64,000 nucleotides of DNA from Alphaproteobacteria bacterium (GTDB lineage Bacteria > Pseudomonadota > Alphaproteobacteria > Rhodobacterales > Rhodobacteraceae): NCBI GenBank assembly GCA_030427145.1, contig JAUHWT010000015.1, forward strand, positions 1 to 64,000, given 5' to 3'. A program made the translations under genes and the position numbers. Shown piece after piece: positions 40,898-55,843 of the stretch (the first letter of the stretch is position 1; the number at the start of each line of letters is the position of its first letter). The notes under the pieces were generated by a model. It ran no database searches and had not been told where the DNA came from. It worked only from the letters and a program-made list of their open reading frames with translations.

Positions 40898-41620
40898 ATG
40901 CCAGACATGGAAAACCTGATCACGGACCTCATCGCCGCACATCGCGCCGGCACCCGGTTTGAACCGGAGATCCGCGCCCTTGAGCGCAGCGAGGTCCTCA
41001 AAATCCAGTCCGCGGTCTGCGACACCCTCGGCGCCGTGGCCGGGTTCAAGGTCGGCGCTCAACCGGACGGACCACCGGTTCTGGCACCAATGATGAGCGT
41101 CTATTCCGTGAAGAGCGGCGGCACCCGCAAGGTTGCGGACCGGCTCGGCATCGAACTTGAGGTGGGCTTTGAACTTCTGCGCGACCTGCCCGGCGACGCC
41201 CTGCCCGACAACCCGCAGGACTATTTCCGCCCCTGCGTCATGCTCGAACTCGTCGACACCCGCCTCACCGGCCCCGCAGCGACCGACCCAGGCTACAAAT
41301 TCGCCGATTTCCAGCTCAACGCGGGCTCCGTGAAGGGCGACAGCCTCACCACCTGGGACGGCTCCGATTTCGGCGCGCTGGAGGCCCGCCTGACCGCCGG
41401 CGATGAGACCATTCTCGACGGGCCCTGCACCGTCCCCGGCGGCTCGGCGCTGGCCAATCTCGACCTGCTGCTCCGGCATCTCGGCAGCCATTGCGGCGGA
41501 CTGCAACCCGGCCGGATCGCCATCACCGGCTCCCTCTGCGGCCTGCCGTATTTTGGCCCGGGCACGGAAATCCACGGCAGCATCAACGGCATCGGCGCCG
41601 TCGCCGTCACCCTCGTGTAA
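40898..41620 (+). CDS. 2-keto-4-pentenoate hydratase-like protein (FAH superfamily)
   Basis: 240 aa; ATG 40907 is an alternative. Its pattern is that of MhpD/decarboxylase relatives: GFKVGAQPDGPPVLAPMMSV, ELEVGFELLRDLPG (metal-binding glutamate region), VMLELVDTRL, FADFQLNAGSVKGD, and ITGSLCGLPYFGPG. Such enzymes hydrate or decarboxylate 2-keto acids. It is convergent with the amidase gene (14-bp overlap at the 3' ends). No other ring-cleavage gene is close, so the substrate is open. Confidence 0.78.
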   Translation: MPDMENLITDLIAAHRAGTRFEPEIRALERSEVLKIQSAVCDTLGAVAGFKVGAQPDGPPVLAPMMSVYSVKSGGTRKVADRLGIELEVGFELLRDLPGDALPDNPQDYFRPCVMLELVDTRLTGPAATDPGYKFADFQLNAGSVKGDSLTTWDGSDFGALEARLTAGDETILDGPCTVPGGSALANLDLLLRHLGSHCGGLQPGRIAITGSLCGLPYFGPGTEIHGSINGIGAVAVTLV

Positions 41621-42956
41621 ACGCCAGATCCGGCCAACGGAACGGCGCGACGACGGGCTCAACAATGTCCATAAGCGCCCGTTCCGACCCCATCCGCCCC
41701 ACGATCTGCATTCCGATCGGCAGGCCCGACCCAACCGTCGCGGGAAAGGCCAGCGCGGGCAGACCCGCCGCATTGACCCAGCCCGTGTACACCGCATGCC
41801 CACGCGGCCCCACGGCCTGCCCGTCAATCGCCGGCGGATGGCTCTCGGCAGCCGGCCAGGGGTTCGCCGCCGATGCGGGCGTCAGAATCGCGTCATACCC
41901 CCAAAGATCCTGCGCCGCCTGCCGCAGGGCAAAAACCTCGTCCAGAATGGCGTAGAAATCCATCGCTGACACCTGCGCGCCACGCTCCGCCATGTCGCGG
42001 TATTTCGGCGCCGCCACCCCGGCCACCGCCGGATCGCGTTTGAAATAGGACGCCAGCCCAATCTCCCCAATCCGCGACCACACCGCGTTTAATGCCGACA
42101 GGTCATGGGGAAACGTCCCCAGCTCAACCTGATGCCCAGCCGAGGACAGCGCGGCAACCGTATCGGCAAATTCCGCGCGAATGGCAGGATCACAGGGCGC
42201 ACCCTCAAACGTCTCGACACAGAGAATACGCGCGGGCCGCTTCTCCGCCACACTTTCCGACACCCCGGACATGACCGCATCGAGCAGACGCAAATCGCGC
42301 AGCGACCGCGCCATCGGCCCGACAACCTCGAAATCCAGCAGAACCTGAGCGAGCCCACCGCCCCGCGGCACATGCCCGATCCCGGGCTTGAGCCCATAGA
42401 GCCCCGTATACCCCGCCGGTCGCCGGATCGATCCGCCCCCGTCCGTCCCCGCTCCCGCCACGGCCAGACCGGCCGCAATCGCGGACACCACACCGCCGGA
42501 CGACCCGCCAGGGGTCAGCTCCGGATCAAACGGATTGCGCGTGGTGCCAAAGGTCAGATTATCGGTGAACCCCTCCACCGCAAATTCCGGCGTATTGCCC
42601 TTGCCCACCACCAGCGCACCGGCCCGTCGCAGCGCCGCCACCGGCCGCTCGTCATGGGTTGGCACCCGCCGGGCCAGTTCCGCATTGCCCCAGGCGGCGG
42701 GAAGGCCCGCCGACACGAGGTTGTCCTTGATGACCAGCGGCACGCCGTCCAGCGGACCATTCGGCGCGCCCGCCGCCCATCGCCGCGTCGAGGCCTCCGC
42801 CTCCTCCAGCAACGTGTCCGACAAAGCGGAGTACGCATTCAGCTCCGGCTCCAGCGCCTCAATCCGCCCGCGCAGCGTCTCGGCCACCGCAACCGGCGTC
42901 GTCCGGCCTTCCGCAAACCCCGCCAGCAGAGCGGTACAGTCATCCTGCCAAATCAT
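41607..42956 (-). CDS. Amidase-signature family amidase
   Basis: 449 aa from the ATG at 42956, whose A is shared with the TGA of the upstream dctM gene. The Lys-cisSer-Ser triad is visible: K77 in VPLVIKDNLV, S152 in TPGGSSGGV, S176 in TDGGGSIRRP. Amidases of this family hydrolyse many C-N bonds, including allophanate, malonamidate and glutamyl-tRNA substrates. Last gene of the 12-gene hydantoinase/TRAP operon, so a small amide or ureide product of that pathway is its likely substrate. Confidence 0.87.
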   Translation of the reverse strand: MIWQDDCTALLAGFAEGRTTPVAVAETLRGRIEALEPELNAYSALSDTLLEEAEASTRRWAAGAPNGPLDGVPLVIKDNLVSAGLPAAWGNAELARRVPTHDERPVAALRRAGALVVGKGNTPEFAVEGFTDNLTFGTTRNPFDPELTPGGSSGGVVSAIAAGLAVAGAGTDGGGSIRRPAGYTGLYGLKPGIGHVPRGGGLAQVLLDFEVVGPMARSLRDLRLLDAVMSGVSESVAEKRPARILCVETFEGAPCDPAIRAEFADTVAALSSAGHQVELGTFPHDLSALNAVWSRIGEIGLASYFKRDPAVAGVAAPKYRDMAERGAQVSAMDFYAILDEVFALRQAAQDLWGYDAILTPASAANPWPAAESHPPAIDGQAVGPRGHAVYTGWVNAAGLPALAFPATVGSGLPIGMQIVGRMGSERALMDIVEPVVAPFRWPDLAFTRG

Positions 42957-44269
42957 CACATCACACTCCCGGGCAGCCATGTCGCAATCCCCGGCACGGC
43001 AATCAGCAACAGCGTAAACAGCAGCATCAGCAGGGCATAGGGCACCGCGCCCCAAACCACATCGGAAAACGGCCCGTTATCCGTCCGCACGCCCTGCACC
43101 ACATAAAGGTTCATGCCTACCGGCGGCGTGATCATGCCCAGCTCGCTCATCAAAACCACAAAGATGCCGAACCAGACCGGATCAATGCCCGCAGCCACAA
43201 CAATCGGCACCACAATCGGAATGGTCAGAACCTGCATCGACAGCACGTCCATAAACATGCCGAGGATCAGGTAAAACACCATCAGCGCCAACAACAGCCC
43301 GGTCGGCCCGAGGCCAAGCCCGGCCACCCAGTCGGAAATCACCCCGGTAATCCCGCCAAGCGCCAGCGTCACGTTGAGCGTAAACGCCGCCGCAATAATC
43401 AAGAGGATCATCCCCGTGGTCTTGGCCGTCTGGCGAAAACAGACATCGAGAAACGCAAAACTCAGCTTCCGCTCGCGCCAGACAAACCCCAGCGCGGCAA
43501 GCACCGCCAGCGCCGCGCTTTCCGTCGGCGTCGCAATCCCGAGATAAATCGACCCCATCACAATCGCAAAAACCACCGCCGCAGGCACCAGATGAACCAG
43601 CCCCCGCAACCGCTCGGCCAGCGGCAGCTTCTCCTCCACCCGCGAGGCGTCCGGCAGACCTTTCGAGCGCCGGTACAGGCTCTCCGCCACCACATAGGCC
43701 ATGAACAGAAGCGTCAGCAGGATCCCGGGCAAAATCCCCGCCATGAACAGCTGCCCCACCGAAACCGAGGCAAGCGAGCCATAGATCAGCAGATTGACCG
43801 ACGGCGGGATTAAAATCCCCAGTGTCCCACCCGCCGCGAGAGACCCCAGAGACCGCGAGGGCGCATAGCCCCGCTCCCCCAGCGCCGGCAGGGCCACCGT
43901 GCCGACCGTCGCGGCCGTCGCCACCGACGACCCGGACGTCGCCGCAAAGAGCGAACACGACCCGATATTCGTGTGCAGCAATCCCCCCGGCAACCGCCCC
44001 AGCCACTGGGCCAGAGAACCATACATCCGGTCCGCCAGCCCCGACCGCAACAACAGCTCACCGAGCAGAATAAACAGCGGGATCGCCGTCAGAACATTCT
44101 CGTTCGACACCCCCCACAAGACCGGCCCCATGGATTTCAGCAGCACCGGCCCATAGAGCATCATGCCCCCGACAACGCCCAGCACCACCATGACCACGGC
44201 CACGGGAAACCCGATCAGCAACAGGCCCATCATCGCGATGAAGCCCACCAGAATATCCGCAATACCCAT
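42956..44269 (-). CDS. TRAP transporter large permease (DctM)
   Basis: 437 aa, about 12 membrane segments. DctM landmarks are SLFAATSGSSVATAATVGTV, AAGGTLGILIPPSVNLLIYG, GIATPTESAALAVLAALGF and SELGMITPPVGMNLYVVQGV. Stop overlaps the amidase start (TGATG). With the DctQ gene 4 bp upstream and a DctP gene before that, this is a complete second importer within one operon that also encodes an ABC system. Confidence 0.93.
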   Translation of the reverse strand: MGIADILVGFIAMMGLLLIGFPVAVVMVVLGVVGGMMLYGPVLLKSMGPVLWGVSNENVLTAIPLFILLGELLLRSGLADRMYGSLAQWLGRLPGGLLHTNIGSCSLFAATSGSSVATAATVGTVALPALGERGYAPSRSLGSLAAGGTLGILIPPSVNLLIYGSLASVSVGQLFMAGILPGILLTLLFMAYVVAESLYRRSKGLPDASRVEEKLPLAERLRGLVHLVPAAVVFAIVMGSIYLGIATPTESAALAVLAALGFVWRERKLSFAFLDVCFRQTAKTTGMILLIIAAAFTLNVTLALGGITGVISDWVAGLGLGPTGLLLALMVFYLILGMFMDVLSMQVLTIPIVVPIVVAAGIDPVWFGIFVVLMSELGMITPPVGMNLYVVQGVRTDNGPFSDVVWGAVPYALLMLLFTLLLIAVPGIATWLPGSVM

Positions 44270-44273: not shown

Positions 44274-44828
44274 TTACCGCCCGCTCAGCTGGTCAAGTTC
44301 CTCGGCCAGTTCCTCCTCGGCCGAGCGCGGATTGAACTCCCGCATCACATCCCCGATGCGCCCCTCCATCACGAGGTAAAACGCCCGAAACGACAGCCAA
44401 AACGAACACAGCGCAAAGAGCGCCAGCCCCAGATACCAGGCCGACTGCGGATAAATCAGGGGCGTCGCCCAGGGCGTGGCCGCCGTCGATCCGTAGACCA
44501 GCGTGTCCTGAATGACGAACCAACCAATATAAAGAAAAAACCCGCCCAAAAGCCCAAGCGACAGCACCGCCGCAAAATCAATCCAGGCCTGAACCCGCTG
44601 CGGCAGCTTCTGGTGCAGCACGTCAATCCGCACATGCGCTCGGTCGATAAGCGCCACGACAAACGCGGCCGACGCCCCGAAGGCCAGCACATAGCCCCCA
44701 AGCTCATCCGCCCCCTGAAGCGACATGTTCAAGAGCTTCCGCAGCACCGTCTCCAGCGCAACAAAACCCGACAGGAACAGCAGCGCCGCTCCAAAACAGC
44801 GGGAAATCCATGTGGCGATTTGATCCAT
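44274..44828 (-). CDS. TRAP transporter small permease (DctQ)
   Basis: 184 aa with four membrane segments and the typical LLNMSLQGADELGGYVLAFG, RAHVRIDVLHQKLPQRVQAW. The C-terminus extends as an acidic tail ending EEELAEELDQLSGR. Lies 4 bp upstream of dctM and 61 bp downstream of dctP, across a hairpin. Confidence 0.88.
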   Translation of the reverse strand: MDQIATWISRCFGAALLFLSGFVALETVLRKLLNMSLQGADELGGYVLAFGASAAFVVALIDRAHVRIDVLHQKLPQRVQAWIDFAAVLSLGLLGGFFLYIGWFVIQDTLVYGSTAATPWATPLIYPQSAWYLGLALFALCSFWLSFRAFYLVMEGRIGDVMREFNPRSAEEELAEELDQLSGR

Positions 44829-44889: not shown

Positions 44890-45924
44890 TCAGAATTCGT
44901 AAGCCGTCCCAACGGTTTCCAGCCATTTCGCCGAACATCCCTCGTTGACCGCGTCGCAGGTCTCCTGCCAGGCCGGAAAGGACACATCCGTCACCGCCGT
45001 CCCGATCAGGTCCACATCCGCGTCCGACGGCTCAACCAGGGTCAGGTCGTATTTCGTACCCGTCTCACAGCTCTCGCCACCGGTGTTGCAGGACACCGCA
45101 TCCACGAACAGCTCCTCGGAATAGGACCAGATATCCGCAACCAGGCTGTCAAACCCGGCCTGAAGTTTCTCCTGCTCCTCCGCCGACATCGCGTTCCACG
45201 TATCGAGGTTGATGCCATAGCCATTCATGGCCAGCTGGAACGCAATCGGCAGCATGTAGGCCGTCACTTCCGGCCAGCCTGCGGAATTGGCCGAGGACGG
45301 ACCGGTGATCGCACAGTCAACCACGCCCCGCGCCAGCGACTGCTGCACTTCAGGGAAAGACAGCGGCACCGGGGTCCCTCCCACCAGCGAAATGAAATTC
45401 GCGAGGTTCTGGTCATAGACCCGCACCTTCAGCCCCTTGAGGTCCGAGAGAGACGCAATCTCCGGCTCACAAAACAGAACCTGCGGACCAAACGGCCAGA
45501 CGCCGAGCAGCTTGGTGTTGAACTTCTCCTGCAACGCCGCATCCACCGCCGGCGCAAACTTCTCGACCGTGTCCATGCCGGTTTCGTAGTCCGGATTCAG
45601 ACCCACCAGATCGAGACCCAAAATCGTCGGCTCATCCCGCGACACCTGGCTCAGGCGCAGCGAAACAATGTCAAACAGACCACCCTTCAGAATACGAAGC
45701 TGCTCGGTATCCTTGATGCCCGTCACGTCCACCGGCTGGTAGTCCGCCGACATTTCAAGCCCGGTCTCTTCCGCGAAATTCTCAAAAAACGGCTGTTCGA
45801 TATTCGACTGGATCAGCCCGGTCGCCACCGGCTGTCCCATCACGCGCAGCGACTGCGCCGAAGCGGCACCCGCCAGAATCGTCGTTGCCGCCAGTGTCGC
45901 GGTCATTGTCCCTGTAAGTGTCAT
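44890..45924 (-). CDS. TRAP transporter substrate-binding protein (DctP)
   Basis: 344 aa from the ATG at 45924, with an AGAGGA ribosome binding site; 29 upstream codons are rejected. Signal peptide MTLTGTMTATLAATTILAGA, cleavage near ASAQS. DctP landmarks are LRVMGQPVATGLIQSNIEQP, LSDLKGLKVRVYDQNLANFI, GTPVPLSFPEVQQSLARGVV and GPSSANSAGWPEVTAY. A C-terminal CNTGGESCETG may form a disulfide. Ligand unknown; the operon suggests a substrate or product of hydantoinase or amidase chemistry. Confidence 0.9.
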   Translation of the reverse strand: MTLTGTMTATLAATTILAGAASAQSLRVMGQPVATGLIQSNIEQPFFENFAEETGLEMSADYQPVDVTGIKDTEQLRILKGGLFDIVSLRLSQVSRDEPTILGLDLVGLNPDYETGMDTVEKFAPAVDAALQEKFNTKLLGVWPFGPQVLFCEPEIASLSDLKGLKVRVYDQNLANFISLVGGTPVPLSFPEVQQSLARGVVDCAITGPSSANSAGWPEVTAYMLPIAFQLAMNGYGINLDTWNAMSAEEQEKLQAGFDSLVADIWSYSEELFVDAVSCNTGGESCETGTKYDLTLVEPSDADVDLIGTAVTDVSFPAWQETCDAVNEGCSAKWLETVGTAYEF

Positions 45925-45971: not shown

Positions 45972-46724
45972 TCATGGAAGGTCTGAAAAGCGCTGGAACA
46001 CCGAGCCCCAACCGGTCACGCGCGCGGGGTTAAGGCCCATCTCACGCATGCAGTGCGCCGCCGTCACGGCAATGGAATCGAGCACCGCAACGCCCGTCGC
46101 CCGCTCGATCCGTTCCGCCACTGGCGCCCCGCGGAAATTGGTGCAGACAATTGCAATGGCATCCGGTTTCGCCTCCGCCACCTGCTCGATCATCCCGCCC
46201 ACCTGTTCGGGCGGATAGGTGGCGAACGAGTAGTTGCCCCTGTCCTCAAGTCGCGCCTCGGCAACAATCTCAATGCCCTGCGCGGCGTAGTTCCCGATGA
46301 TCCGCGACTGGATCTCGCCAAGATAGGGCGTCACCAGCCCAAGCCGCCTCACCCCCATCGCCCGCAAAATCCGGTCATAGGCCAGCATGGTCGAGGTCGC
46401 GGGAACACCCGTCACCCGCTCGATTTCCGCACAAAGCGCCCGGTCCTTGTCGAGCCCCAGCCACGCGGCCGAGGTGCCGTTCCACGCGATCAGTCGCGGC
46501 TTCGCTTCCGCCAGACGCTCGGCGGCCTCCAGGATCGGCGCGTTCTGAAACTGCGTTTGCGAGGCCGCCGACATGGAAATCTCAACCACCCGGAACCGCC
46601 CGAAATGCGCCGAGGCCTCCTCGCCAAAGGGCGCAAACATCGCCGCAGTATAGGGTTCCAGCGCCGTGTTCGAGGACGGGGTCAACATCCCCACCCGCGC
46701 CCCGTCGATCAGGTCCGCGCTCAC
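45972..46724 (-). CDS. Maleate isomerase/arylmalonate decarboxylase-superfamily enzyme with a single active-site cysteine
   Basis: 250 aa. Asp/Glu-racemase fold. The N-terminal PSSNTALEP supplies the conserved asparagine seen in maleate cis-trans isomerases. The first catalytic position, cysteine in racemases and isomerases, is glycine here (G83 in AWNGTSAAW), while the second is kept (C194 in AIVCTNFRG). That Gly/Cys arrangement resembles arylmalonate decarboxylase. It overlaps the hydantoinase gene by 4 bp, so its substrate is probably a pathway dicarboxylate or malonate-type compound. An isomerase role is the alternative. Confidence 0.78.
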   Translation of the reverse strand: MSADLIDGARVGMLTPSSNTALEPYTAAMFAPFGEEASAHFGRFRVVEISMSAASQTQFQNAPILEAAERLAEAKPRLIAWNGTSAAWLGLDKDRALCAEIERVTGVPATSTMLAYDRILRAMGVRRLGLVTPYLGEIQSRIIGNYAAQGIEIVAEARLEDRGNYSFATYPPEQVGGMIEQVAEAKPDAIAIVCTNFRGAPVAERIERATGVAVLDSIAVTAAHCMREMGLNPARVTGWGSVFQRFSDLP

Positions 46725-48118
46725 AGCAAAATCTCCGGCGCACCGCGCGCGATGTGACCACCCGCCGGCGCTCCGGTCAGCGTGCCATCCGCCATCACCG
46801 TCCGCCCGCGCAGGATCGTCCGCACCGGCCAGCCCGTCACCTCAAACCCCTCCCATGGCGTGTAGTCCGACCCGTGATGCAGATCCGCCTGCTGAATGGG
46901 CCGCGTCAACTCCGGGTCCCAGAGCACAATATCCGCATCCATCCCCACCATGATCGCGCCCTTGGATTTCAGCCCATAGAGCCGCGCATGATTGGTCGCC
47001 GTAATCGCCGCAAACCGCTCCAGCGAAATCCGCCCCTTCACCACCCCTTCGGAGAACAGGATCGGCAGACGCGTCTCAACACCGGGGATGCCATTGGGAA
47101 TATTGCGGAAACTCTTTCGCGCCCCGGGCACGTCCTTGCCCGCGCTGTCGTCAAACCGGAACGGGCAGTGATCGGAGGAGAACAGCTCAAAATCCCCGCC
47201 AACGATCCCCGACCAGATATTCTCCCAGTCATCGGTGGTGCGCGGCGGCGGCGAGCAGACATATTTCGCCCCGTCAAACCCCGCCCGGTCCAGATCATCC
47301 GCGGTCAGCGTGACATATTGCGGGCAGGTCTCGGCGAACACCTTCGCCCCCCGCGCGCGCCCCCGTCGGATTTCTTCCAGCGCCTCACCGTTCGAGACGT
47401 GCACAATCGTCAGCGGCACATCCGCAACCTCGGCCAGCGTAATCGCCCGGTGCGTCGCCTCGCGCTCCACCGGCACAGGCCGGGTGCGCGCATGATAGGC
47501 TGGATCCGTGTTGCCCTCGCGTTCCGCCTTGTCCCGCAGAAACTCGATGGCATCCTCGTTTTCCGCATGCACCATCACCAGCGCGTTCTGCTCCCGCGCG
47601 ACGGCCATCACCTCCAGGATCTCCCGATCGGACAGCGCCATGCCGCGATAGGTCATGAACACCTTGAAACTCGTATGCCCGGCATGAATAAGCGCGGGCA
47701 AATCCTGGCCCAATGTCACCGGATCGGTTTTGATGACGATCAGGTGGAAGGACACGTCGCAATGACATTTGCCCTCCGCCTTCGCGTGATACGCCGCCAC
47801 CGCCTCCCGCAGGGTCTGACCCTCCTCCGGCAGGCAAAACGGCAAAACCGTCGTATTCCCACCCGCAACCGCCGACCGGGTCGCCGAGGTAAAGTCATCC
47901 GCCATCTCAACCCCAGGCCCGGAGGGCTGGGCAATGTGAACATGACTGTCGATCCCGCCCGGCATGGCAATCAGACCATCCGCCTCAATCACCTCCGCCG
48001 CGCCGTCCAACGACGCACCAAGCGCGGTAATCACACCGTTCTCAATACCGATGTCACAGACCGAAACACCGCCCGGCGCCACAACCCGCGCCCCTCTGAT
48101 AACCGTGTCAAAACTCAT
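46721..48118 (-). CDS. Dihydropyrimidinase/D-hydantoinase-type cyclic amidohydrolase
   Basis: 465 aa. Metal and catalytic residues of the hydantoinase family are complete: H59 and H61 in GIDSHVHIAQP, carboxylated lysine K152 in TSFKVFMTYRG, histidine in VMVHAENEDAI, histidine in TIVHVSNGEAL, and the aspartate in FSSDHCPF. It opens cyclic imides or ureides such as dihydropyrimidines, hydantoins or allantoin. The ligand-specific loops cannot be read reliably. It overlaps both neighbouring genes by 4 bp, so the three are translated together. Confidence 0.9.
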   Translation of the reverse strand: MSFDTVIRGARVVAPGGVSVCDIGIENGVITALGASLDGAAEVIEADGLIAMPGGIDSHVHIAQPSGPGVEMADDFTSATRSAVAGGNTTVLPFCLPEEGQTLREAVAAYHAKAEGKCHCDVSFHLIVIKTDPVTLGQDLPALIHAGHTSFKVFMTYRGMALSDREILEVMAVAREQNALVMVHAENEDAIEFLRDKAEREGNTDPAYHARTRPVPVEREATHRAITLAEVADVPLTIVHVSNGEALEEIRRGRARGAKVFAETCPQYVTLTADDLDRAGFDGAKYVCSPPPRTTDDWENIWSGIVGGDFELFSSDHCPFRFDDSAGKDVPGARKSFRNIPNGIPGVETRLPILFSEGVVKGRISLERFAAITATNHARLYGLKSKGAIMVGMDADIVLWDPELTRPIQQADLHHGSDYTPWEGFEVTGWPVRTILRGRTVMADGTLTGAPAGGHIARGAPEILL

Positions 48119-48861
48119 TGCAGCGCCTCCATGGCAATCACGCGGGACAATGCCGGCGACAGACCGGCTGACGGTTTGGGAATGGGCCGGCTCGCGCGGC
48201 CGTCAAATCGGGCATTGAGCGAGGCCAGCATCATGGCCTGCGCAACCGCCGCCTCGATCGGATCAACCACAATTGCGGGAACCTCACCGGAAATCTCAGG
48301 AGCCAGCCCGGCCAGCGGCGCACCGCCCAGAATGACAACATCCGCGCCATCCTCCCTCACCGCCCGGTTCGCGAGCGCGATCAGATCGCCGCGCATGTCC
48401 TGCGCCACACTGTCGAGCCGCACGTCATGCTCCGCCGGTGCCCGCACGCCAGTAAACCGCGAGCCAAGCCCGGTATCCGCGACGCAATCCGCATACCACC
48501 GCGTCATCACGGGCGAGAACGTCACAACCGAATACCGCTCGCCCATCATCGCGGCCGTGACCACCGCGGCCTCTGCCATGCCCACCACCGGCAGGTCAAA
48601 CAGCTCCCGCGCCCCGGCAAGGCCCGGATCACCAAAGGCCGCAATCACCACCGCATCCACGCTGTCGACGTGATCCGCGATCATCTCAAGCGTGATGCCC
48701 CCGGCAATCTGGGCCTCCGCCCGCGACGCGATATAGGGAAACCCGCGCGTGGCTGTCAGCGGCACGATCTCCGCACGGCTGCCCGCAACACGGCGGGCAA
48801 TCGCCGCCATCGTGTCGGTCATGCCCTGGGTCATGTTCGGATTAACAAGCAGAATACGCAT
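48115..48861 (-). CDS. Hydantoin/allantoin-racemase-like protein lacking both catalytic cysteines
   Basis: 248 aa from the ATG at 48861, starting with the family's MRILLVNPNMTQGMTDTMA. In hydantoin racemases the two catalytic cysteines sit in ACFSDPGL-like and GCAGM-like motifs. Here they read IAAFGDPGLAGAREL (A75) and VILGGAPLAGL (G180), and the only cysteine is C126. Fold and active-site surroundings (EAAVVTAAMMG, VVDPIEAAV) are intact. Two-base racemisation by the usual mechanism is therefore unlikely. The gene lies directly upstream of the hydantoinase with a 4-bp overlap. Confidence 0.8.
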   Translation of the reverse strand: MRILLVNPNMTQGMTDTMAAIARRVAGSRAEIVPLTATRGFPYIASRAEAQIAGGITLEMIADHVDSVDAVVIAAFGDPGLAGARELFDLPVVGMAEAAVVTAAMMGERYSVVTFSPVMTRWYADCVADTGLGSRFTGVRAPAEHDVRLDSVAQDMRGDLIALANRAVREDGADVVILGGAPLAGLAPEISGEVPAIVVDPIEAAVAQAMMLASLNARFDGRASRPIPKPSAGLSPALSRVIAMEALQ

Positions 48862-48937: not shown

Positions 48938-49828
48938 TCATGCCCCGCCTCCATGCACCTGCGCCCAGCGGGCCGCGATCTCCCGGCGCGGCGCGACCCA
49001 GACCCCGGGGCGCAGCGAAATATAGGCCAGCACATCCTCCAGCGCCTTGATCCGCCCCGGCCGTCCAATCAGCCGCAAATGCAGCCCAACCGACAGCATC
49101 CTCGCCGCCGATGCGCCCTCACGGTAAAGCCGCTCAAAAGCACCGATCACGTAGTCGCTGAAATCCCGCGCCTGCACGAACCCACCGCCGGGCGAGAACC
49201 GCATGTCATTGGTATCAAAGGCGTAAGGCAGGATGACGTGACCGCCCTGCATCCTGGGAATGTCATCGTCGTAAACGTCGCTGTCATAGAGGAAATCGCC
49301 ACGCTCAATCAGCAGATCCCGCGTATTGACCGACGCGCTCGACCGCGTGTGCCAGCCCACCGGCGCCACACTCCCCGCCGCCGCAATCGCGGCATGGGTC
49401 CGCTCGATGACGGCCGCCTCCTCGTCCCGCGTCATGTTCGCGTGCCGCTGCCAGAGCCAGCCGTGACAGGAGACCTCATGCCCCCGCGCCACAATGTCAC
49501 GCATCAGCCAGGGGCTGCGCTCCGCAACCCGGCCACAGGTCGAAAACGTGGCCCTGACCCCATGCACGTCAAACGCATCCGCAATCCGCTGGTAACCCCG
49601 CCGCGTGCCATAGGCAAAATGCGTCTCCATGCAGAGATCCGGCACGCCCGTCACCTCCTCACGGATCTCGTAAACGCTCTCGTTGCGCGCATCCCCGTCT
49701 CCGATCGACAGCTCCGCGCCCTCCTCGACATTGACCACAAACGACACCGCCAACTGCGCATCGTCAGGCCAGCAGGGTTCAGGCTCCGCCCCGAAATACC
49801 CCTTAAAATCACGCCGGTCGCTCATCAC
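48938..49828 (-). CDS. Polysaccharide-deacetylase-family protein resembling allantoinase PuuE
   Basis: 296 aa; ATG 49825 is an alternative start. It follows the PuuE pattern: LAVSFVVNVEEGAELSIGDG, ARNE, then METHFAYGTRRGYQRIADAF, FSTCGRVAERSP, EVSCHGWLWQRHANM and VGWHTRSSASVNTRDLL. PuuE enzymes are metal-light or metal-free members that hydrolyse allantoin, and the family also includes chitooligosaccharide deacetylases. Its place beside a hydantoinase and a racemase-like protein makes a cyclic ureide substrate plausible. Confidence 0.82.
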   Translation of the reverse strand: MMSDRRDFKGYFGAEPEPCWPDDAQLAVSFVVNVEEGAELSIGDGDARNESVYEIREEVTGVPDLCMETHFAYGTRRGYQRIADAFDVHGVRATFSTCGRVAERSPWLMRDIVARGHEVSCHGWLWQRHANMTRDEEAAVIERTHAAIAAAGSVAPVGWHTRSSASVNTRDLLIERGDFLYDSDVYDDDIPRMQGGHVILPYAFDTNDMRFSPGGGFVQARDFSDYVIGAFERLYREGASAARMLSVGLHLRLIGRPGRIKALEDVLAYISLRPGVWVAPRREIAARWAQVHGGGA

Positions 49829-49829: not shown

Positions 49830-50630
49830 TCACCCCTGGATCATGCGGTTGAGGCCAACGGTCCGGGCCCCAAAGACCAGAACGACAATCGCCAGCAGAA
49901 TGAGCCCCGACGACATCGCCGCCAGCGACGGGTCCGGCTGTTCCTCCAGATACTGAAGCATCTTGATCGGCAGCGTCTTGTTGCGCGCATCCGTCAGGAA
50001 AATCGAAATCGGGTAGTTGTCCATCGACGCGAGAAACGCGAACAGCCCCGAGGTCAAATAGGCCGGCGCCAGGTTCGGCACGAGCACCTTCAAAATCGCC
50101 TTTGGGTAACTCAGCCCCAGCGTCCGCGCCGCATCAATCATCGAGAAATCAAACGCGCTCATTGAGGCCAGCAGCGTGCGCATCACAAAGGGCAGCGTGA
50201 TGACAATATGCCCCAGCAGCAGCGAGAAATACGCGTCCCTCAGCCCAATCTCACGAAAGAACTGCAACAGCGCCACGCCCACAACCAGCCCCGGCATCAT
50301 CAGCGGCGACACGGCAAAGGTCGCAACCGCCTCCCGCCCCCGGAAATTCCCCCGCGTCACCGCGATGGAGGCAAGCGTGCCAAGCACAAGCGAGATCAGC
50401 GTCGAGATAAAGGCGAGGTTCAGCGACAGAACCACCGCATCCCAAAGCCCCGACCGCCGCTCAAGCGAGGCATACCAGCGCAGCGACCATTCCGGCGGCG
50501 GCAGCGTATAGACCGGCGAGGAGGTAAAGGACGCCGCCACCGTAATCACAATCGGCAGCATCAGAAAAACCACGCAGATCAGGCCGACAATCCAGCTCAG
50601 CGCGCGGAAAATGCGATCGGTTTGGGTCAT
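49830..50630 (-). CDS. Polyamine/opine-type ABC transporter permease (PotC type)
   Basis: 266 aa with six membrane segments. YTLPPPEWSLRWYASLERRS at the first loop and the coupling helix 'MIDAARTLGLSYPKAILKVL', then VPNLAPAY are typical of PotC. 4-bp overlap with the PotB-type gene and one base between its stop and the deacetylase start. Confidence 0.9.
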   Translation of the reverse strand: MTQTDRIFRALSWIVGLICVVFLMLPIVITVAASFTSSPVYTLPPPEWSLRWYASLERRSGLWDAVVLSLNLAFISTLISLVLGTLASIAVTRGNFRGREAVATFAVSPLMMPGLVVGVALLQFFREIGLRDAYFSLLLGHIVITLPFVMRTLLASMSAFDFSMIDAARTLGLSYPKAILKVLVPNLAPAYLTSGLFAFLASMDNYPISIFLTDARNKTLPIKMLQYLEEQPDPSLAAMSSGLILLAIVVLVFGARTVGLNRMIQG

Positions 50631-51457
50631 TGACGCGCTCCCAGACGACGGGCCAGCCAGCTTGAGAACACGACCACGAAGATCGCGATGGCCAGCAGAA
50701 CGGCGGAAATGGTCGACCCCAGCGGCTCATTGCGCAGATACAGGAAACTGCGCGCGATCAGCATCGACATCGTCTGCTGACGCTCCCCCACAATCAGCGA
50801 CGGGATCACGTACATCGAAATCGCCATGGAGAAGGTGAACGCCGACCCCGCCACCACACCGGGCAGGGTCAGGGGCAGCGTCACGTTGAAAAACCTGAAC
50901 ATTGGCGACGCCCCCAGCGAGGCCGCGGCCTCCGGCAACCGGCTGTCCAGCTGGCGCACCACCGCATAAATCGGCAGCACCATAAACGGCAGGAACACGT
51001 TCGCCGCACCCACCACCAGGGCCGTCTCGGTAAACAGCATCCGCACCGGCCCATCGGTCAGCCCAATCCACTGCAACGTGCTGTTCAGAAACCCGTTCGC
51101 CCGGAACAGGATCGACCACGCGAACGCCTTGACCACCACGCCCAGCGACATGGGCAACACCATCGCCACCAGAAAAACCGTCAGCCATGGCCCCTTCGCC
51201 CGGCTCATCGCAAACGCGGTCGGATAGGCTATCACCAGCGCCAGAACGGTCGTCAGCGCCGCCACCCGCAGCGTCCGCCACAGCACCCGCATGTTGTACT
51301 CATCCGAGAAAAACGCGGCATATTCACCAAAGGAAACCCCATCCGCCGTGCGGATCGACTTCGCCAGAAGCATCAGGAGCGGCAGCGCATAAATCACCGC
51401 CAGATACGCCAGCCCCGGCACCGCCAGCAGCGCAACCCGGTCCACCCGCGCGGTCAT
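50627..51457 (-). CDS. Polyamine/opine-type ABC transporter permease (PotB type)
   Basis: 276 aa with six membrane segments: LALVIAYPTAFAMSRAKGPW, MVLPMSLGVVVKAFAWSILF and the coupling helix 'LPEAAASLGASPMFRFFNVT', then LPLTLPGVVAG. It overlaps the ATPase gene upstream and the PotC-type gene downstream by 4 bp each. It forms the channel together with the PotC-type subunit. Confidence 0.9.
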   Translation of the reverse strand: MTARVDRVALLAVPGLAYLAVIYALPLLMLLAKSIRTADGVSFGEYAAFFSDEYNMRVLWRTLRVAALTTVLALVIAYPTAFAMSRAKGPWLTVFLVAMVLPMSLGVVVKAFAWSILFRANGFLNSTLQWIGLTDGPVRMLFTETALVVGAANVFLPFMVLPIYAVVRQLDSRLPEAAASLGASPMFRFFNVTLPLTLPGVVAGSAFTFSMAISMYVIPSLIVGERQQTMSMLIARSFLYLRNEPLGSTISAVLLAIAIFVVVFSSWLARRLGARQ

Positions 51458-52542
51458 GGCGCAACCTCATAGGCCAGTGTGTCATCCACCGCCCAGCCAA
51501 GTGTCACCGCATCACCGCGTTTTAGCCCGCCACGAATACCCGGCAGTTCACACAGGATGCGGTCCCCGCCCCGCGCGGTCCCGTGCAGCACGGTCTTCGA
51601 CCCCAGAACCATCACATCGGTCAGCGGCACACCGATCGTGTTCTCGCCCGCCTCCACCGCAATGAGTTCCGGCCGCACACCCAGCAGCACATCCTTACCC
51701 ACAGTCACATCACTGCGCGCCGACAACCGCCCATAGGCCGTATCGACCGCAATCGTTCCGGCATCAGAGCTGACCACCCGACCCGAAATGCGCGTCGACA
51801 GCCCAACGAAATCCATGACGAACGGCGAGGCCGGACGGGCATAGAGCGTCGAGGGATCGGCAAACTGCTCAATCCGGCCCGCATTCATCACCGCGATCCG
51901 GTCCGAGACACCCATCGCTTCTTCCTGGTCGTGGGTCACGAACACCGCCGTAATCCCCCGGTCGAGCAGAAGCGATTTCAGCTCCACCTGCATCGTCTCG
52001 CGCAGCTTGCGGTCCAGCGCCGAAAACGGCTCATCAAGCAGCAGAAGATCCGGGCCCACCACCAGCGCCCGCGCCACCGCCACGCGCTGCTGCTGTCCAC
52101 CGGACAGGGCCGAAATCGGCCGGTCCGCAAACTCCGTCATCCGCACCAGCGACAGGGCCTCACTGACCGGCGCACCCGTGGCCGACTTCGCCATCCCCCG
52201 CGCCCGCAGCCCAAAAGCCACGTTCTCGGCCACGGTCAGATGCGGAAACAGCGCGTAGTTCTGGAACACAACCGACACGTTGCGCTTGTGCGCCGGAAAG
52301 CGGGTGATCTCCCGCCCGCCCAGCACCACAGCCCCCTCATCGGCCTCCAGAAGGCCCGCGATAATCCGCAACAGCGTCGATTTGCCACATCCGGACGGAC
52401 CGAGGAGAGACACAAGCTCCCCCCGCTCCACCCGAAAGTTCATGTCGGACATGACCCGGGTGCCCTTGAAGGATTTCGCAATGCCCCAGGCCTCAAGATA
52501 GTGACGCGGGAATTTGCCCTGTTCCAAAGTCATGTCCTTCAC
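51454..52542 (-). CDS. Polyamine/opine-type ABC transporter ATP-binding protein (PotA type)
   Basis: 362 aa. Walker A GPSGCGKST at about 48-56, VVFQNYALFPHLTVAENVAF, signature LSGGQQQRVAVARALV, Walker B LLLLDEPFSALDRKLRETM, and a TOBE-type C-terminal domain. It powers the transporter whose permease genes follow with 4-bp overlaps and whose binding-protein gene precedes it by 7 bp. Confidence 0.93.
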   Translation of the reverse strand: MKDMTLEQGKFPRHYLEAWGIAKSFKGTRVMSDMNFRVERGELVSLLGPSGCGKSTLLRIIAGLLEADEGAVVLGGREITRFPAHKRNVSVVFQNYALFPHLTVAENVAFGLRARGMAKSATGAPVSEALSLVRMTEFADRPISALSGGQQQRVAVARALVVGPDLLLLDEPFSALDRKLRETMQVELKSLLLDRGITAVFVTHDQEEAMGVSDRIAVMNAGRIEQFADPSTLYARPASPFVMDFVGLSTRISGRVVSSDAGTIAVDTAYGRLSARSDVTVGKDVLLGVRPELIAVEAGENTIGVPLTDVMVLGSKTVLHGTARGGDRILCELPGIRGGLKRGDAVTLGWAVDDTLAYEVAP

Positions 52543-52549: not shown

Positions 52550-53602
52550 TTAGAGCGCCATCAGCTTGTCGAAACGCTCAATCCACGAGCGGCGGTTTTC
52601 GGCAACAAACGCCCAGTCCGGGCTGAAGATCGGCACGCCCTCAGGGATCTCGGCGCCCGCGTTAACGGTGGTGTTCGCCGGGACGGACGAGGCAAAATCC
52701 GCAATCTCCGCCTGCATCTTCGGCCCGAGCATCTCGTTGACGTAAGCCTGCGCCAGTTCCGGGTTCGGTCCGCCCTTCACGAGACAGATACCCGAGGGCA
52801 TCGCGAAAATGCCTTCCGACGGCGCGGCCAGATCAACCGGCACACCCTCGGCCTTGCGCGGAAGCGTGTAGGACGAGAAGTTGCCCGACAGCATCGAAAT
52901 CTCGCCCTGCTCCAGCAGGTTAAACGCCTGGCTCATGGTCGTATAAACCGACAGCAGGTTGGGTTTCAGTTCCTCAAGCTTCGCGAAGGCCGCCTCAATC
53001 TCGTACTGCGCTTCGGAGAACGGCTTGCCCGAGCCCAGCATCGCCGCGACGAACAATGTCCACATGCCTTCGGTGTTTTGCAGCGACGGGATGATCACCT
53101 GCCCTGCATTCGCCGGATCCCACAGCGCCTCCCAGGACGGCACGCCCTCGGAGAAATCGGTGTTGTAGGCCACGCCCGCCCAGGGCTGCACGTAGTTGCA
53201 CCACATGCCCTCCATGTGAACCGCATCGGGCCGCAGGTCGGTCATGTTGCCCACCGCATCCGGCGTGATCGGCGTCAGAAGATCCGCCTCAACCGACTGG
53301 ATCATGACCGGATCATCCATCTGCACCACGGACAGGTACGGCGCGTCGGCATTCGACGCCATTTTCTCCAGGTTCACCGAAGACTTGGTGCCCTCAAACA
53401 GAATGTCGGCCCCAATCGCCTCCTTCATGTGCGGGGTCACGATCTGCTCCATCCAGGCCGTGTGGGACCCGGCGCAGCCGATCACGATCTCGCTGGACTG
53501 GGCGCGCAAAATCGACGGGGCGGCGAGCGTTCCCGCCGCGGCAATGGTTGAGGTCTTGAGAAAATTTCGGCGGGAGGTGCCGTTGGAAAGCAAGCGTGTC
53601 AT
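52550..53602 (-). CDS. Polyamine/opine-type periplasmic binding protein, Tat-exported (PotD type)
   Basis: 350 aa. A twin-arginine signal SRRNFLKTSTIAAAGTLAAP leads to export as a folded protein. Mature landmarks are SEIVIGCAGSHTAWMEQIVT, LFEGTKSSVNLEKMAS, WAGVAYNTDFSEGVPSWEAL, QGEISMLSGNFSSYTLPRKA and CLVKGGPNPELAQAYVNEML of family-1/PotD binding proteins. First gene of the 12-gene operon; the GntR-type operator at 53672 lies 70 bp upstream. Ligand unknown. Confidence 0.9.
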   Translation of the reverse strand: MTRLLSNGTSRRNFLKTSTIAAAGTLAAPSILRAQSSEIVIGCAGSHTAWMEQIVTPHMKEAIGADILFEGTKSSVNLEKMASNADAPYLSVVQMDDPVMIQSVEADLLTPITPDAVGNMTDLRPDAVHMEGMWCNYVQPWAGVAYNTDFSEGVPSWEALWDPANAGQVIIPSLQNTEGMWTLFVAAMLGSGKPFSEAQYEIEAAFAKLEELKPNLLSVYTTMSQAFNLLEQGEISMLSGNFSSYTLPRKAEGVPVDLAAPSEGIFAMPSGICLVKGGPNPELAQAYVNEMLGPKMQAEIADFASSVPANTTVNAGAEIPEGVPIFSPDWAFVAENRRSWIERFDKLMAL

Positions 53603-53671: not shown

Positions 53672-53687
53672 AAATGGAATGCCATTT
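53672..53687. promoter_or_regulatory. GntR operator site 1, AAATGG-AATG-CCATTT dyad
   Basis: A 16-bp dyad 70 bp upstream of the binding-protein start. It is the exact reverse complement of site 2 at 53816-53831 and matches site 3 at 55844-55859 in 15 of 16 positions. Arms AAATGG/CCATTT fit a dimeric GntR/FCD repressor, and a GntR gene of that type is present at the locus. Confidence 0.75.
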
Positions 53688-53761: not shown

Positions 53762-53796
53762 AAATGAGGCAACTGCCCAGGCCGGTTGCCTCATTT
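53762..53796 (+). promoter_or_regulatory. 12-bp perfect inverted repeat in the leader of the amidohydrolase gene
   Basis: AAATGAGGCAAC (53762-53773) and GTTGCCTCATTT (53785-53796) pair perfectly; in RNA the stem extends by U-G and G-C pairs to a 7-nt loop. It ends 21 bp before the start codon, upstream of the ribosome binding site, without a T tract. It may be an RNA control hairpin or a second operator. Confidence 0.5.
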
Positions 53797-53815
53797 CAAA
53801 GCAAAAGGAAAAACC

Positions 53816-53831
53816 AAATGGCATTCCATTT
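53816..53831. promoter_or_regulatory. GntR operator site 2 overlapping the amidohydrolase start codon
   Basis: AAATGGCATTCCATTT covers the ATG at 53818 and codes for the first five residues MAFHL. It repeats site 1 in inverse orientation 144 bp away. A repressor here would block initiation or early elongation. Confidence 0.7.
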
Positions 53832-55128
53832 GAGAGACGTCACCCTCCTCACATCCGACTCACCCGCCCAAACCTCCACGGACATCCGGATTGATGACGC
53901 GGGAACCATCACGGAAATCGGGCGCGCCCTCCCCCGCCACGATACGGACGGGGTGGTGGACGCCAAAGGTGCCCTTTGCCTGCCCGGATTTGTGAACACC
54001 CATAACCACTCCCCGCTGATGATCGTGCGCGGCATGGTCGAGGACAAAGGCTTCGCCCCCGCCTACATCCCCGGCGTCCCCCAGGGCCACTGGCTGTCCG
54101 AGGACGACACCCTCGCCCTCGCCCGTCTCGGCGTCATGGAAATGCTCTGCGCCGGCGCCACAACCATCGTCGACTACTACCGCTGCCCCGAGGCTCTCGC
54201 CCAGGCCGCCGACGAGTTCGGACTGCGCGCCATGATCGGCGGCCGCGTCATGGACATGGACACCGCCGCGCTCGCCGAAGGCCGCTTTGAACGCGACACG
54301 ACCCTCGGCGTTGAAACCCTCCGCGCCGCACTGGACGTCATCGAAAAATGGGACGGCCACGACCGCATCTCCACCATCCTCGCCCCCCACGCACCCGACA
54401 GCTGCTCCCGCGACATCTTCACTGAAATGCGCAACATCGCCGCGAAAACCGGCAAACAGGTCCACACCCATCTCAGCCAGTCCCAATGGGAAGTCGACCA
54501 GCTCATCGCCCGCGAGGGCATGACCCCCACCGAATTCCTTGATGATCTCGGCCTGCTCTCCCCCGACCTCATTGCTGCCCACTGCATCTTCATGAGCGAC
54601 AGCGACATCTCCCGCTTCGGTCAGGCCAACGCCGTGGTCGCCCACGCCCCCATCGGCAACGCCTCCTTCGGGGCCGCCGCACCCATCAAGTCCCTGAAAG
54701 AGGCCGGCGCCCGCATCACACTTTGCACCGACACAAAATCCGCCGACATGTTCGAGGCCATGCGCATGAGCCTCGCCACCGCCCGCTGGCGCGCCGGAAT
54801 GTCCTTCGATTTCAACGCCAGGGAAGTCTTCGGCTGGGCCACCACCGCCGGGGCTGAGGCCCTCAAAGGTCACGCCGCCACCGGAATGCTCCGCGTGGGC
54901 GACCCCGCCGACCTGATCCTGCTCGACCCGCTTGCCCCCAACCTCCACCCGGTCCTGGACGGCTTCGGCATCGTGGCCCATTCCGGCTCCGCCGCCAATG
55001 TCACCGACGTCATGGTCCAGGGAGAATGGCTCATCCGCGACCGCCGACCCACCCGTGTCAACATGGAGGACGTCATCACCGAAGCACACACCACCGCCCA
55101 AAAACTCTGGGCGCGGGCCGCATCCTAG
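53818..55128 (+). CDS. Amidohydrolase/deaminase of the cytosine deaminase-TrzN type
   Basis: 436 aa from ATG 53818, preceded by AAAGGAA; upstream codons fall in the operator and hairpin region. Metal ligands of the mononuclear amidohydrolase fold are H62 and H64 (NTHNHSPL), H215/H217 (QVHTHLSQ), H254 (AAHCIFM) and D304 (LCTDTKSAD). Members deaminate or dehalogenate N-heterocycles such as cytosine, S-adenosylhomocysteine or triazines. Divergent from the hydantoinase operon and sharing its operator, it probably performs an early or salvage step on the same ring compound. The stop overlaps that of the GntR gene by 4 bp. Confidence 0.82.
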   Translation: MAFHLRDVTLLTSDSPAQTSTDIRIDDAGTITEIGRALPRHDTDGVVDAKGALCLPGFVNTHNHSPLMIVRGMVEDKGFAPAYIPGVPQGHWLSEDDTLALARLGVMEMLCAGATTIVDYYRCPEALAQAADEFGLRAMIGGRVMDMDTAALAEGRFERDTTLGVETLRAALDVIEKWDGHDRISTILAPHAPDSCSRDIFTEMRNIAAKTGKQVHTHLSQSQWEVDQLIAREGMTPTEFLDDLGLLSPDLIAAHCIFMSDSDISRFGQANAVVAHAPIGNASFGAAAPIKSLKEAGARITLCTDTKSADMFEAMRMSLATARWRAGMSFDFNAREVFGWATTAGAEALKGHAATGMLRVGDPADLILLDPLAPNLHPVLDGFGIVAHSGSAANVTDVMVQGEWLIRDRRPTRVNMEDVITEAHTTAQKLWARAAS

Positions 55129-55814
55129 CCCGCCATCGCGGCATTCGCCTCTAGGAGGGAGGCCACCGTCTCCCCCGTATGCAAAAGATGCTGCCGCCAG
55201 ATGCGTGCCGCGCGTTCGGGATCGCGCGCACGCAGCGCCGCCATCATCTCCTCATGCTCCGCCACCGCCTCGGTCAGACGCGCGGGCTGCATGATCGCCA
55301 AAAACCGCCCCCGCCGCGCCCGGCCCATCAGCCGCGTATGCGTCTCCAACAAAATCGGATTGCCGCAGCTCGCTATTATATGGTCGTGGATCTCGGAATT
55401 CGTGTCGAAATAATCCGTATGGTTGCCGACCTTGTGATAGGTCAGCATCCGGTCATGCAGCTCCTCCAGCTCATCGAGAACCGCATCGCTGATCGACCCG
55501 GCCAGCCGCTCCGCCGCCAGGCTCTCAATCGCCGCGATCACATCAAACAGCTCCCGCGCCTCCTGGGGCTCGTACTGTAAAACCTGCGCCCCGCGATTGC
55601 GCGAAATCACGATCAGCCCATCCGCCTCAATCAGCTTCAAAGCCTCCCGCACCGGCGTCCGCGACACGTCAAATTCCGCCGAAATCCGCCGCTCCACGAT
55701 CCGCGACCCGGGCGGCAGGACGCCCTTCACGATACGGTCGCGCAAAATTCCCGCGACCCATTGCGCAATGGCGGTCGGCTCCCCGCCCGCCCTCTCGTCC
55801 GGATTGTCAGCCAC
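55125..55814 (-). CDS. GntR-family (FCD type) regulator of the hydantoinase/amidohydrolase locus
   Basis: 229 aa starting at a GTG at 55814, chosen because AAGGTG stands just upstream; an ATG at 55838 would abut the operator and has no ribosome binding site. Winged helix AQWVAGILRDRIVKGVLPPG, FDVSRTPVREALKLIEADGL; FCD domain with NSEIHDHIIASCGNPILLET and VAEHEEMMAALRARDPERAA. The dyad at 55844-55859 lies 30 bp upstream of its start and recurs upstream of both target units, so autoregulation and control of the locus are likely. Confidence 0.88.
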   Translation of the reverse strand: MADNPDERAGGEPTAIAQWVAGILRDRIVKGVLPPGSRIVERRISAEFDVSRTPVREALKLIEADGLIVISRNRGAQVLQYEPQEARELFDVIAAIESLAAERLAGSISDAVLDELEELHDRMLTYHKVGNHTDYFDTNSEIHDHIIASCGNPILLETHTRLMGRARRGRFLAIMQPARLTEAVAEHEEMMAALRARDPERAARIWRQHLLHTGETVASLLEANAAMAG

Positions 55815-55843
55815 TCTACACCTTAAGAAAAGACACACATGGA

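Follow-up and report, generated by a model that had tools for sequence, protein, structure and literature searches.

We analysed a 64,000-nucleotide stretch (hereafter "the window") of a 4.54-Mb Rhodobacteraceae genome assembled in 40 contigs, and describe here a gene cluster at positions 41607-55838 in which relatives of allantoin- and hydantoin-processing enzymes stand together with two importers. An earlier note on this DNA had assigned 14 genes to the cluster, and translations together with Pfam and NCBIfam matches bear out both their number and their families. Twelve genes lie on the minus strand and are transcribed in the order PotD-like solute-binding protein, ATP-binding cassette (ABC) ATPase, two permeases, a PuuE-like deacetylase (PuuE2), a racemase-like protein (Rac), a hydantoinase, an arylmalonate decarboxylase (AMDase)-like protein (AMD), DctP, DctQ, DctM and an amidase; a TRZ/ATZ-type amidohydrolase gene diverges from them on the plus strand, and a GntR/FCD gene lies beyond it. 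The twelve had been described as tightly overlapping: the tight packing holds, but the overlap is not continuous, spacing ranging from 4-base overlaps (such as the 4 bp shared by the Rac and hydantoinase genes) to a 76-bp gap between the Rac and PuuE2 genes, with 47 and 61 bp flanking the DctP gene.

The ABC importer (PotDABC), all on the minus strand, comprises the PotD-like protein (52550..53602; PF13343 and PF13416, with a twin-arginine signal found by a TAT signal model), which scores at most 53 bits against any NCBIfam binding-protein model; a PotA-like ATPase (51454..52542), recognised from the Walker A and ABC signature motifs of its translation and its conserved neighbourhood; a PotB-like permease (50627..51457), assigned from translation and conserved neighbourhood; and a PotC-like permease (49830..50630), assigned from its translation and kept beside PotD and PuuE2. 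There follow on the same strand PuuE2 (48938..49828), Rac (48115..48861; PF01177, 141 bits), the hydantoinase (46721..48118; hydantoinase/dihydropyrimidinase family, PRK13404) and AMD (45972..46724), and then a tripartite ATP-independent periplasmic (TRAP) importer made up of the solute-binding protein DctP (44890..45924; PF03480, above the cut-off of NCBIfam TRAP_S1 and with TRAP binding proteins among its PDB matches), the small permease DctQ (44274..44828; PF04290) and the large permease DctM (42956..44269; PF06808, 302 bits). The amidase-signature enzyme (amidase A; 41607..42956, minus strand; PF01425, 267 bits) has orthologues of 51-70% identity at five related loci (L033, L077, L091, L095 and L101). 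The amidohydrolase (PF01979, 157 bits) occupies 53818..55128 on the plus strand and the GntR/FCD-family regulator (PF07729 and PF00392) 55125..55838 on the minus strand. Likely start positions are 48861 for Rac, 45924 for DctP, 42956 for the amidase and 53818 for the amidohydrolase. A 240-residue protein resembling 2-keto-4-pentenoate hydratases and the FAH family is encoded at 40898..41620 on the plus strand; it matches the NCBIfam 2-keto-4-pentenoate hydratase model weakly (18.6 bits) and no Pfam model. Because its gene and that of the amidase overlap at the latter's end, and because homologues lie within the same clusters elsewhere (L033, L095, L101 and L118; weaker ones in L166, L188 and L192), this gene, just outside the 14, is probably a fifteenth member of the locus.

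The profile of Rac matches the allantoin racemases 3qvj (E = 3.3e-50) and 5lfd (4.4e-44), which places it in the Asp/Glu/hydantoin racemase family. The catalytic cysteines of the allantoin racemase KpAllR are given as Cys79 and Cys184 in passages of PMC12661438, and the cysteines of 3qvj align with Rac positions 75 and 180. At these positions all 88 Rac sequences of at least 47% identity (some of them duplicates) carry Ala75 and Gly180, as do 17 of 17 in an alignment reaching down to 41% identity, whereas among 16 other racemases from the relatives 15 have cysteine at the first position and 12 at the second. Y43, F115 and W122 are likewise specific to Rac. Rac thus does not have the cysteine pair of an allantoin or hydantoin racemase, and the absence of catalytic cysteines that had been claimed for this protein is upheld by alignment to both solved relatives and orthologues.

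Passages of PMC4996985 give G74, T75, S76, Y126, C188, P15 and G189 as the residues by which AMDases are recognised, and describe a hydrophobic pocket lined by L40, V43, Y48, V156 and M159. Structure alignment pairs the first five of the recognition residues with AMD G83, T84, S85, Y134 and C194; G83, T84, Y134 and C194 are present in 53 of 53 sequences and S85 in 51 of 53, so that AMD retains the dioxyanion-hole motif (GTS), the tyrosine and, in every sequence, the single cysteine with which it had been credited. It also passes the Pfam Amdase cut-off (PF17645, 60.5 bits for a required 25.9). Maleate isomerase could be ruled out as an identity for AMD, since the two cysteines of that enzyme are not both present: all 53 sequences have Gly83 where 2xec shows its first cysteine.

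Of the three remaining hydrolases, the hydantoinase passes both NF009941 (704.7 bits, cut-off 647) and TIGR02033 (497.9, cut-off 393). Residues H59, H61, K152, H184, H240 and D316 are kept in 18 aligned sequences; this HxH, Lys, two His and Asp set, which we take to be the metal-site ligands, forms a standard core. PuuE2 scores 254.9 bits against TIGR03212, below the cut-off of 424.6, while the other PuuE of this genome reaches 537.9. Twelve of its positions, among them H160 (in place of Tyr), R100, N49 and W107, and with two extra arginines in the set, reach at least 95% conservation across 40 PuuE2 sequences and are rare or absent among 11 canonical PuuE; PuuE2 is, by sequence comparison, a second PuuE of this genome, paralogous to the textbook one. 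In the amidohydrolase, H62, H64, H218, H255 and D305 are present in 22 of 22 sequences, corresponding to what are presumably the HxH, H, H and D metal ligands of TRZ/ATZ deaminases. The glutamate of the HxxE motif, which we assume to be catalytic, is found in all five solved relatives shown but is replaced by Gln221 in 22 of 22 relatives. Since this deaminase hallmark is missing, the deamination step that had been proposed for the enzyme is doubtful.

The promoters of the window are marked by a 16-bp palindrome, AAATGGMATGCCATTT, which recurs at related loci. The first proposed GntR operator (53672..53687, AAATGGAATGCCATTT) is an exact match in the PotD promoter, where related loci have a palindrome at the same place; the second (53816..53831, AAATGGCATTCCATTT) is a palindrome match over the amidohydrolase start codon; and the third (55844..55859), before the GntR gene, has one mismatch on one strand and two on the other. 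These three sites near AAATGGMATGCCATTT give six strand matches in the window, against a mean of 0.79 in shuffled sequence and with none of 100 shuffles reaching six. The core AATGG-N4-CCATT was found in 13 of 16 promoter regions compared (15 before PotD, including the window's, plus that of the window's GntR gene). Across the whole genome the loose palindrome occurs 9 times and its reversed control twice, and the form AATGG[A/C]AT[G/T]CCATT occurs twice, both times in this locus. A search of 131 related sources (2.49 Mb), which were chosen for carrying locus genes and some of which overlap or repeat one another (e.g., L105 and L131), returned 26 loose matches in 20 sources. Each of the 26 lies at a PotD, amidohydrolase, GntR, Rac or PuuE2 gene or in the roughly 320 bp upstream of one, and Rac is itself preceded by the palindrome in L105, L128, L131 and L133. 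A conserved, locus-specific and operator-like palindrome at promoters is what a GntR-controlled locus should carry, and the pattern makes it likely that the palindrome is the GntR operator.

The locus genes also keep each other's company in other genomes. Among 394 genomes of the family, AMD is present in 21 (matches with E up to 1e-40), Rac in 13 and both in 8, where 0.69 joint occurrences would be expected (hypergeometric P = 1.7e-8, uncorrected for kinship). In six of these eight genomes (G000, G065, G219, G234, G292 and G297) the two genes lie within 12 kb, and in the other two (G150 and G192) they are on separate contigs. G292 holds all 14 genes in the window order, 13 of them at 70-88% identity on one fetched stretch (L091) and GntR at 66% on another (L092), and a Mangrovicoccus locus (L119) likewise has all 14 in the same order.

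We also compared the best 80 of 468 Rac relatives found by scanning a genome collection with the Rac alignment. Partners were counted within 10 kb; 25 of the 80 loci are less than 20 kb long and at contig ends, and several come from close Bradyrhizobium strains. In this set of the best 80 of 468, Rac is accompanied by a hydantoinase at 44 loci, AMD at 37, PuuE2 at 31, PotD at 26 (24 of them with PuuE2), an amidase at 27, the amidohydrolase at 16 and a related GntR at 44; at least one of hydantoinase, AMD and PuuE2 is present at 67, and hydantoinase and AMD are both present at 31. Rac, hydantoinase and AMD are close together in Methylobacterium nodulans (L116), and the trio stands beside one major facilitator superfamily (MFS) transporter in Paraburkholderia (L113) and in Arthrobacter sp. 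ZXY-2 (L114), the hydantoinase of the latter being merely 30% identical. On the IncFIB Klebsiella oxytoca plasmid pIron_OXY (NZ_MN783747.1; L115), relatives of the hydantoinase, AMD and cysteine-less Rac lie near one another, in a region that also holds an FAH-family gene and dehydrogenases. The co-occurrence that the earlier note had proposed to look for, of hydantoinase, cysteine-less Rac and single-cysteine AMD, is found for Rac and AMD across family genomes and for all three at 31 of the best 80 Rac loci; neither homologues confined to unrelated contexts, an outcome that the note had named as counting against it, nor a lack of any common promoter is what these comparisons returned. A search of a viral collection gave no match to the hydantoinase. 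As side observations, DUF3830 genes lie near the AMD gene in L113 (15040-15459) and on the Rhizobium johnstonii 3841 plasmid pRL10 (L117; 15058-15465), where AMD is flanked by two TRZ-type amidohydrolases, genes for RidA and DUF3830 are also present and nothing matches the hydantoinase, so that the AMD family is found here in another setting.

These comparisons divide the locus into two modules, PotDABC-PuuE2-amidohydrolase-Rac and DctPQM-amidase-AMD-hydantoinase, which are found both apart and together. In genome G081 (L031) GntR and the whole first module are present at 73-94% identity, accompanied by a different amidase, and the hydantoinase, AMD and DctPQM are missing from the vicinity; G006, G423 and G411 (L077, L093 and L095, respectively) carry the DctPQM, AMD and hydantoinase genes and lack PotDABC there. 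The two halves stand together on the Salipiger sp. CCB-MM3 plasmid NZ_CP014599.1 (L111); the fetched stretch has no match to the window-type amidohydrolase, although another gene of the amidohydrolase family is annotated at its edge. Paracoccus denitrificans PD1222 also has homologues of locus genes on a plasmid. The window joins the modules, which meet at Rac-hydantoinase-AMD. As the modules also occur apart, the locus may have two entry points or serve two related substrates, and the two transporters and two sub-modules suggest the former. What had been read as one GntR-linked catabolic locus therefore stands in so far as the palindrome and the conserved neighbourhoods are concerned, but a single, strictly linear route is weakened by the separability of its parts. 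The same separability raises the question of whether two unrelated pathways, each with a compound of its own, are simply neighbours here: the first set does occur alone in G081 and the second without PotDABC in G006, G423 and G411. We consider this unlikely, given that hydantoinase and AMD are both found at 31 of the 80 best Rac loci of 468, that Rac, hydantoinase and AMD share one MFS transporter in Paraburkholderia and (with the divergent hydantoinase) Arthrobacter, and that the 4-bp overlap between the window's Rac and hydantoinase genes spans the module boundary.

Urate-pathway enzymes at some related loci give a hint of the substrate. The genome's textbook urate cluster, with PuuD, 5-hydroxyisourate (HIU) hydrolase and 2-oxo-4-hydroxy-4-carboxy-5-ureidoimidazoline (OHCU) decarboxylase-PuuE together, is on another contig (C8), apart from the locus, which itself holds no canonical HIU hydrolase, OHCU decarboxylase or full-score PuuE and so does not constitute the textbook pathway. 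The bare occurrence of the urate pathway in a genome was dropped as evidence: among 26 genomes searched, 13 of which had Rac matches and 13 none, 23 have an OHCU decarboxylase and 24 an HIU hydrolase. Four related loci (L033, L094, L118 and L163), as well as L209, elsewhere in the Rac-bearing genome G384, do however carry OHCU decarboxylases of a second type, with 37-52% identity to type-2 queries as opposed to 32-37% to canonical ones; in the Hoeflea locus (L163) a single strand carries in succession the decarboxylase, DctP, an unlabelled open reading frame in the place of DctQ, DctM and Rac. Type-2 HIU hydrolases occur in L118, L185, L186 and L198 and also in L209: those of the last four share 49-55% identity with the L118 enzyme, and each of the five shares 30-39% with the canonical one, has lost the arginine of the GRTD motif and has phenylalanine for the tyrosine of the C-terminal YRG motif (L118 alone being read through its last residue). 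On a Defluviimonas plasmid (NZ_CP156080.1; L118) the locus lies amid genes for PuuD, HIU hydrolase, OHCU decarboxylase and malate synthase G, along with a BhcA-like aspartate-glyoxylate aminotransferase that has homologues in L101, L188 and L192. Beside the G065 locus (L208, 14731-15470), two adjacent extra HIU hydrolases fall outside both groups (37-43% identity to canonical and 32-33% to type-2 sequences).

As a control, genomes of the whole class were searched with a type-2 OHCU decarboxylase; the matches lie at 44 places, spread over 42 of 385 genomes, and of these places 18 were fetched, one was the known G065 locus and 25 lay outside the comparison. At 17 of the 18 fetched places the decarboxylase best matched the canonical query; that of L218 best matched a type-2 query (40%), yet stands beside matches to canonical-type HIU hydrolase, PuuD and PuuE. 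Rac, AMD or hydantoinase was found at 0 of the 18 (tblastn, E 1e-8, half of the query covered, 28% identity). These comparisons link the locus to the urate family through the type-2 enzymes seen in a minority of its relatives.

The genes, their conserved neighbourhoods, the operator-like palindrome, the loss of the racemase cysteines and the paralogy of PuuE2 are direct observations. They support a real and conserved GntR-linked catabolic locus, one that probably goes past ordinary allantoin or hydantoin use, as the earlier note had argued; the loss of both cysteines in close relatives of Rac and the presence of a separate textbook urate/allantoinase cluster support that argument, and a ureide-type compound as the class of substrate is likewise supported. 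Our tentative reading, to which we give somewhat less than an even chance, is that the locus catabolises a urate-family cyclic ureide other than allantoin or a simple hydantoin, in parallel to the textbook urate-to-allantoate cluster. Such a parallel pathway would be the simplest account that gives every enzyme a use. PotDABC would import a ring compound, whose ring C-N bonds the TRZ-type amidohydrolase and PuuE2 would hydrolyse; Rac would no longer racemise, and may act on an intermediate that has no abstractable C5 proton. The hydantoinase would then open a cyclic ureide ring to a malonate-type acid, from which AMD, with its dioxyanion-hole motif and single cysteine, could take one carboxylate, and the amidase would release urea or ammonia. 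Carbon might leave as glyoxylate, in keeping with the BhcA-like aminotransferase and malate synthase G at some related loci, while DctPQM could bring in an acidic intermediate as a second way into the pathway. GntR, finally, would act as a repressor at the palindromes, with repression lifted on binding of the compound or of an intermediate.

A more specific, and rather improbable, version of this parallel ureide pathway is that the substrates are hydantoins of the C5-carboxylated or spiro kind, which arise on the side when urate or 8-oxoguanine is oxidised, and that they are broken down by way of a uroxanate-type (diureidomalonate-type) geminal dicarboxylate. PuuE2 and the hydantoinase would open two hydantoin rings to give this dicarboxylate, AMD would decarboxylate it to allantoate, and the cysteine-less Rac would handle the intermediate without a C5 proton. 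If true, this would give bacteria a way to salvage purines that have been oxidised, and AMDase-type enzymes a natural place in ureide metabolism.

Several results weigh against a parallel ureide pathway. At the enzyme level, the solved allantoin racemase chain 5lfd has glycine at the first cysteine position in our alignment, and 4 of the 16 other racemases have no cysteine at the second, so that loss of a single cysteine is not peculiar to Rac. AMD departs from two of the published AMDase residues in 53 of 53 sequences, with S17 for P15 (an equivalence set by a shared P-x-S/P motif, beyond the structure-aligned stretch) and T195 for G189, and falls below the NCBIfam AMDase cut-off (55.2 of 225 bits). 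At the level of gene content, the two modules do occur separately, and 13 of the 80 best Rac loci of 468 have no hydantoinase, AMD or PuuE2 within 10 kb, some of them being cut by contig ends. The urate link is subject to further reservations: type-2 HIU hydrolase or OHCU decarboxylase genes are found at only 4 of those 80 loci, two of them in Bradyrhizobium; the window has neither gene; the class-wide search gave no match to the type-2 OHCU query at E 1e-20 in this genome; the BhcA-like protein of L118 scores 455 bits for a cut-off of 650; and the PuuD of L118, 79% identical to this genome's canonical PuuD, would suit ordinary urate.

The last point bears on the view that the locus is redundant, that is, a transferred and diverged second set for allantoin or hydantoin that does the job of the textbook cluster. 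In its favour, PuuE2 can still be matched to the structures of PuuE allantoinases (3cl6, E = 4.6e-62), the hydantoinase has a standard set of core residues, L118 couples type-2 enzymes with a canonical-type PuuD, and the genes are confined to a minority of family genomes and found on plasmids elsewhere, as is typical of transfer. Such redundancy would nonetheless have to accommodate the loss of both racemase cysteines in 88 of 88 sequences when most other racemases from these relatives keep them, the twelve distinctive positions of PuuE2, the coexistence of the textbook cluster in the same genome and an AMD that has no known part in allantoin use, and we regard it as improbable. Even less probable, in our view, is a barbiturate-type route, in which the hydantoinase would open a 5-substituted barbiturate, the amidase would act like ureidomalonase (the amidase-signature enzyme of the oxidative pyrimidine route) and AMD would decarboxylate a substituted malonate: a ring opener, an amidase-signature enzyme and a malonate-decarboxylase-like enzyme in one gene string do fit malonurate chemistry, and TRAP transporters suit anions, but PuuE2, Rac and the neighbouring type-2 HIU hydrolases and OHCU decarboxylases would be left without a role. 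N-methylated urates, on whose methyl derivatives paralogous HIU hydrolase, OHCU decarboxylase and allantoinase would act, have a precedent in caffeine C-8 oxidation (the urate-enzyme paralogues tmuH and tmuD and a putative trimethylallantoinase, with the last steps and the racemase unassigned, in passages of PMC4408171), but are very improbable here, as no caffeine dehydrogenase or FAD urate-type monooxygenase turned up in the proteins scanned (no search having been aimed at them) and an AMDase-like decarboxylase would not be needed.

Whichever compound is degraded, two enzyme lineages lack, among the relatives compared, some of the catalytic residues that mark their families, and yet they stay next to a hydantoinase in Arthrobacter, on a plasmid of Klebsiella and in members of the alpha- and beta-proteobacteria, which points to chemistry so far unassigned in the Asp/Glu racemase superfamily. 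The locus could also supply a context for AMDase-type enzymes, whose metabolic function is described as little known in parts of PMC4996985. Given the operator motif and the small number of ureides that come into question, this can be tested directly in culturable strains.

Two neighbouring gene groups in the window appear to be distinct from the locus. Next to GntR, at 55940-62700, lie genes for a thiamine pyrophosphate (TPP)-dependent enzyme, two dihydrodipicolinate synthase (DHDPS)-family proteins and another GntR, after which come genes resembling TctC and TctA; this looks like a separate locus. Glyoxylate carboligase was set aside as an identity for the TPP enzyme (among the genes at 55940-60605), which keeps what we take to be the TPP glutamate motif. 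On the other side, the genes at 34078-39784 encode an ABC importer, a sulfatase-family protein (35001-36533) and a DUF4432 protein, and are probably a sulfated-sugar locus.

In the open-licence part of PubMed Central, outside which much of the literature lies, we recognised no paper describing this gene set, and comparison with known systems gives partial likenesses. Two identities were rejected on family cut-offs. The ectoine enzyme EutA is the best NCBIfam match of AMD, but at 63 bits against a cut-off of 318 and with no other ectoine gene among the 14. The ergothioneine enzyme ErtD (hydantoin-5-propionate amidohydrolase) resembles the hydantoinase as a ring opener of the same family, but the match reaches 245 bits against a cut-off of 650 and no other ert gene was recognised among the 14. 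Creatinine (N-methylhydantoin) was also considered as a substrate, and would leave PuuE2, Rac and AMD without a role. The caffeine C-8 cluster of Pseudomonas sp. CBB1, as far as it is set out in the parts of PMC4408171 used here, is alike in having a second, paralogous urate-type enzyme set and differs in its oxidase genes, which are not among the 14; those parts make no mention of an AMDase-like gene or a hydantoinase. AMDase clusters, as presented in passages of PMC4996985, share the G-T-S motif, the tyrosine, the single cysteine and nearby TRAP or ABC transporter genes, whereas the locus has a hydantoinase partner and no mandelate-racemase gene among the 14. In the hyu hydantoin-utilisation systems, following passages of PMC3546935, a hydantoinase likewise stands beside a gene of the hydantoin-racemase family; the locus differs in a Rac without catalytic cysteines, in having no D-carbamoylase among the 14 and in the presence of AMD and PuuE2. 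With the textbook urate-to-allantoate pathway (PuuD, HIU hydrolase, OHCU decarboxylase and PuuE) the locus shares a PuuE-family enzyme, the fold family of allantoin racemase and, at some related loci, a type-2 HIU hydrolase or OHCU decarboxylase; it differs in its sub-cut-off PuuE2, its cysteine-less Rac, and the addition of AMD, a TRAP importer and an amidase.

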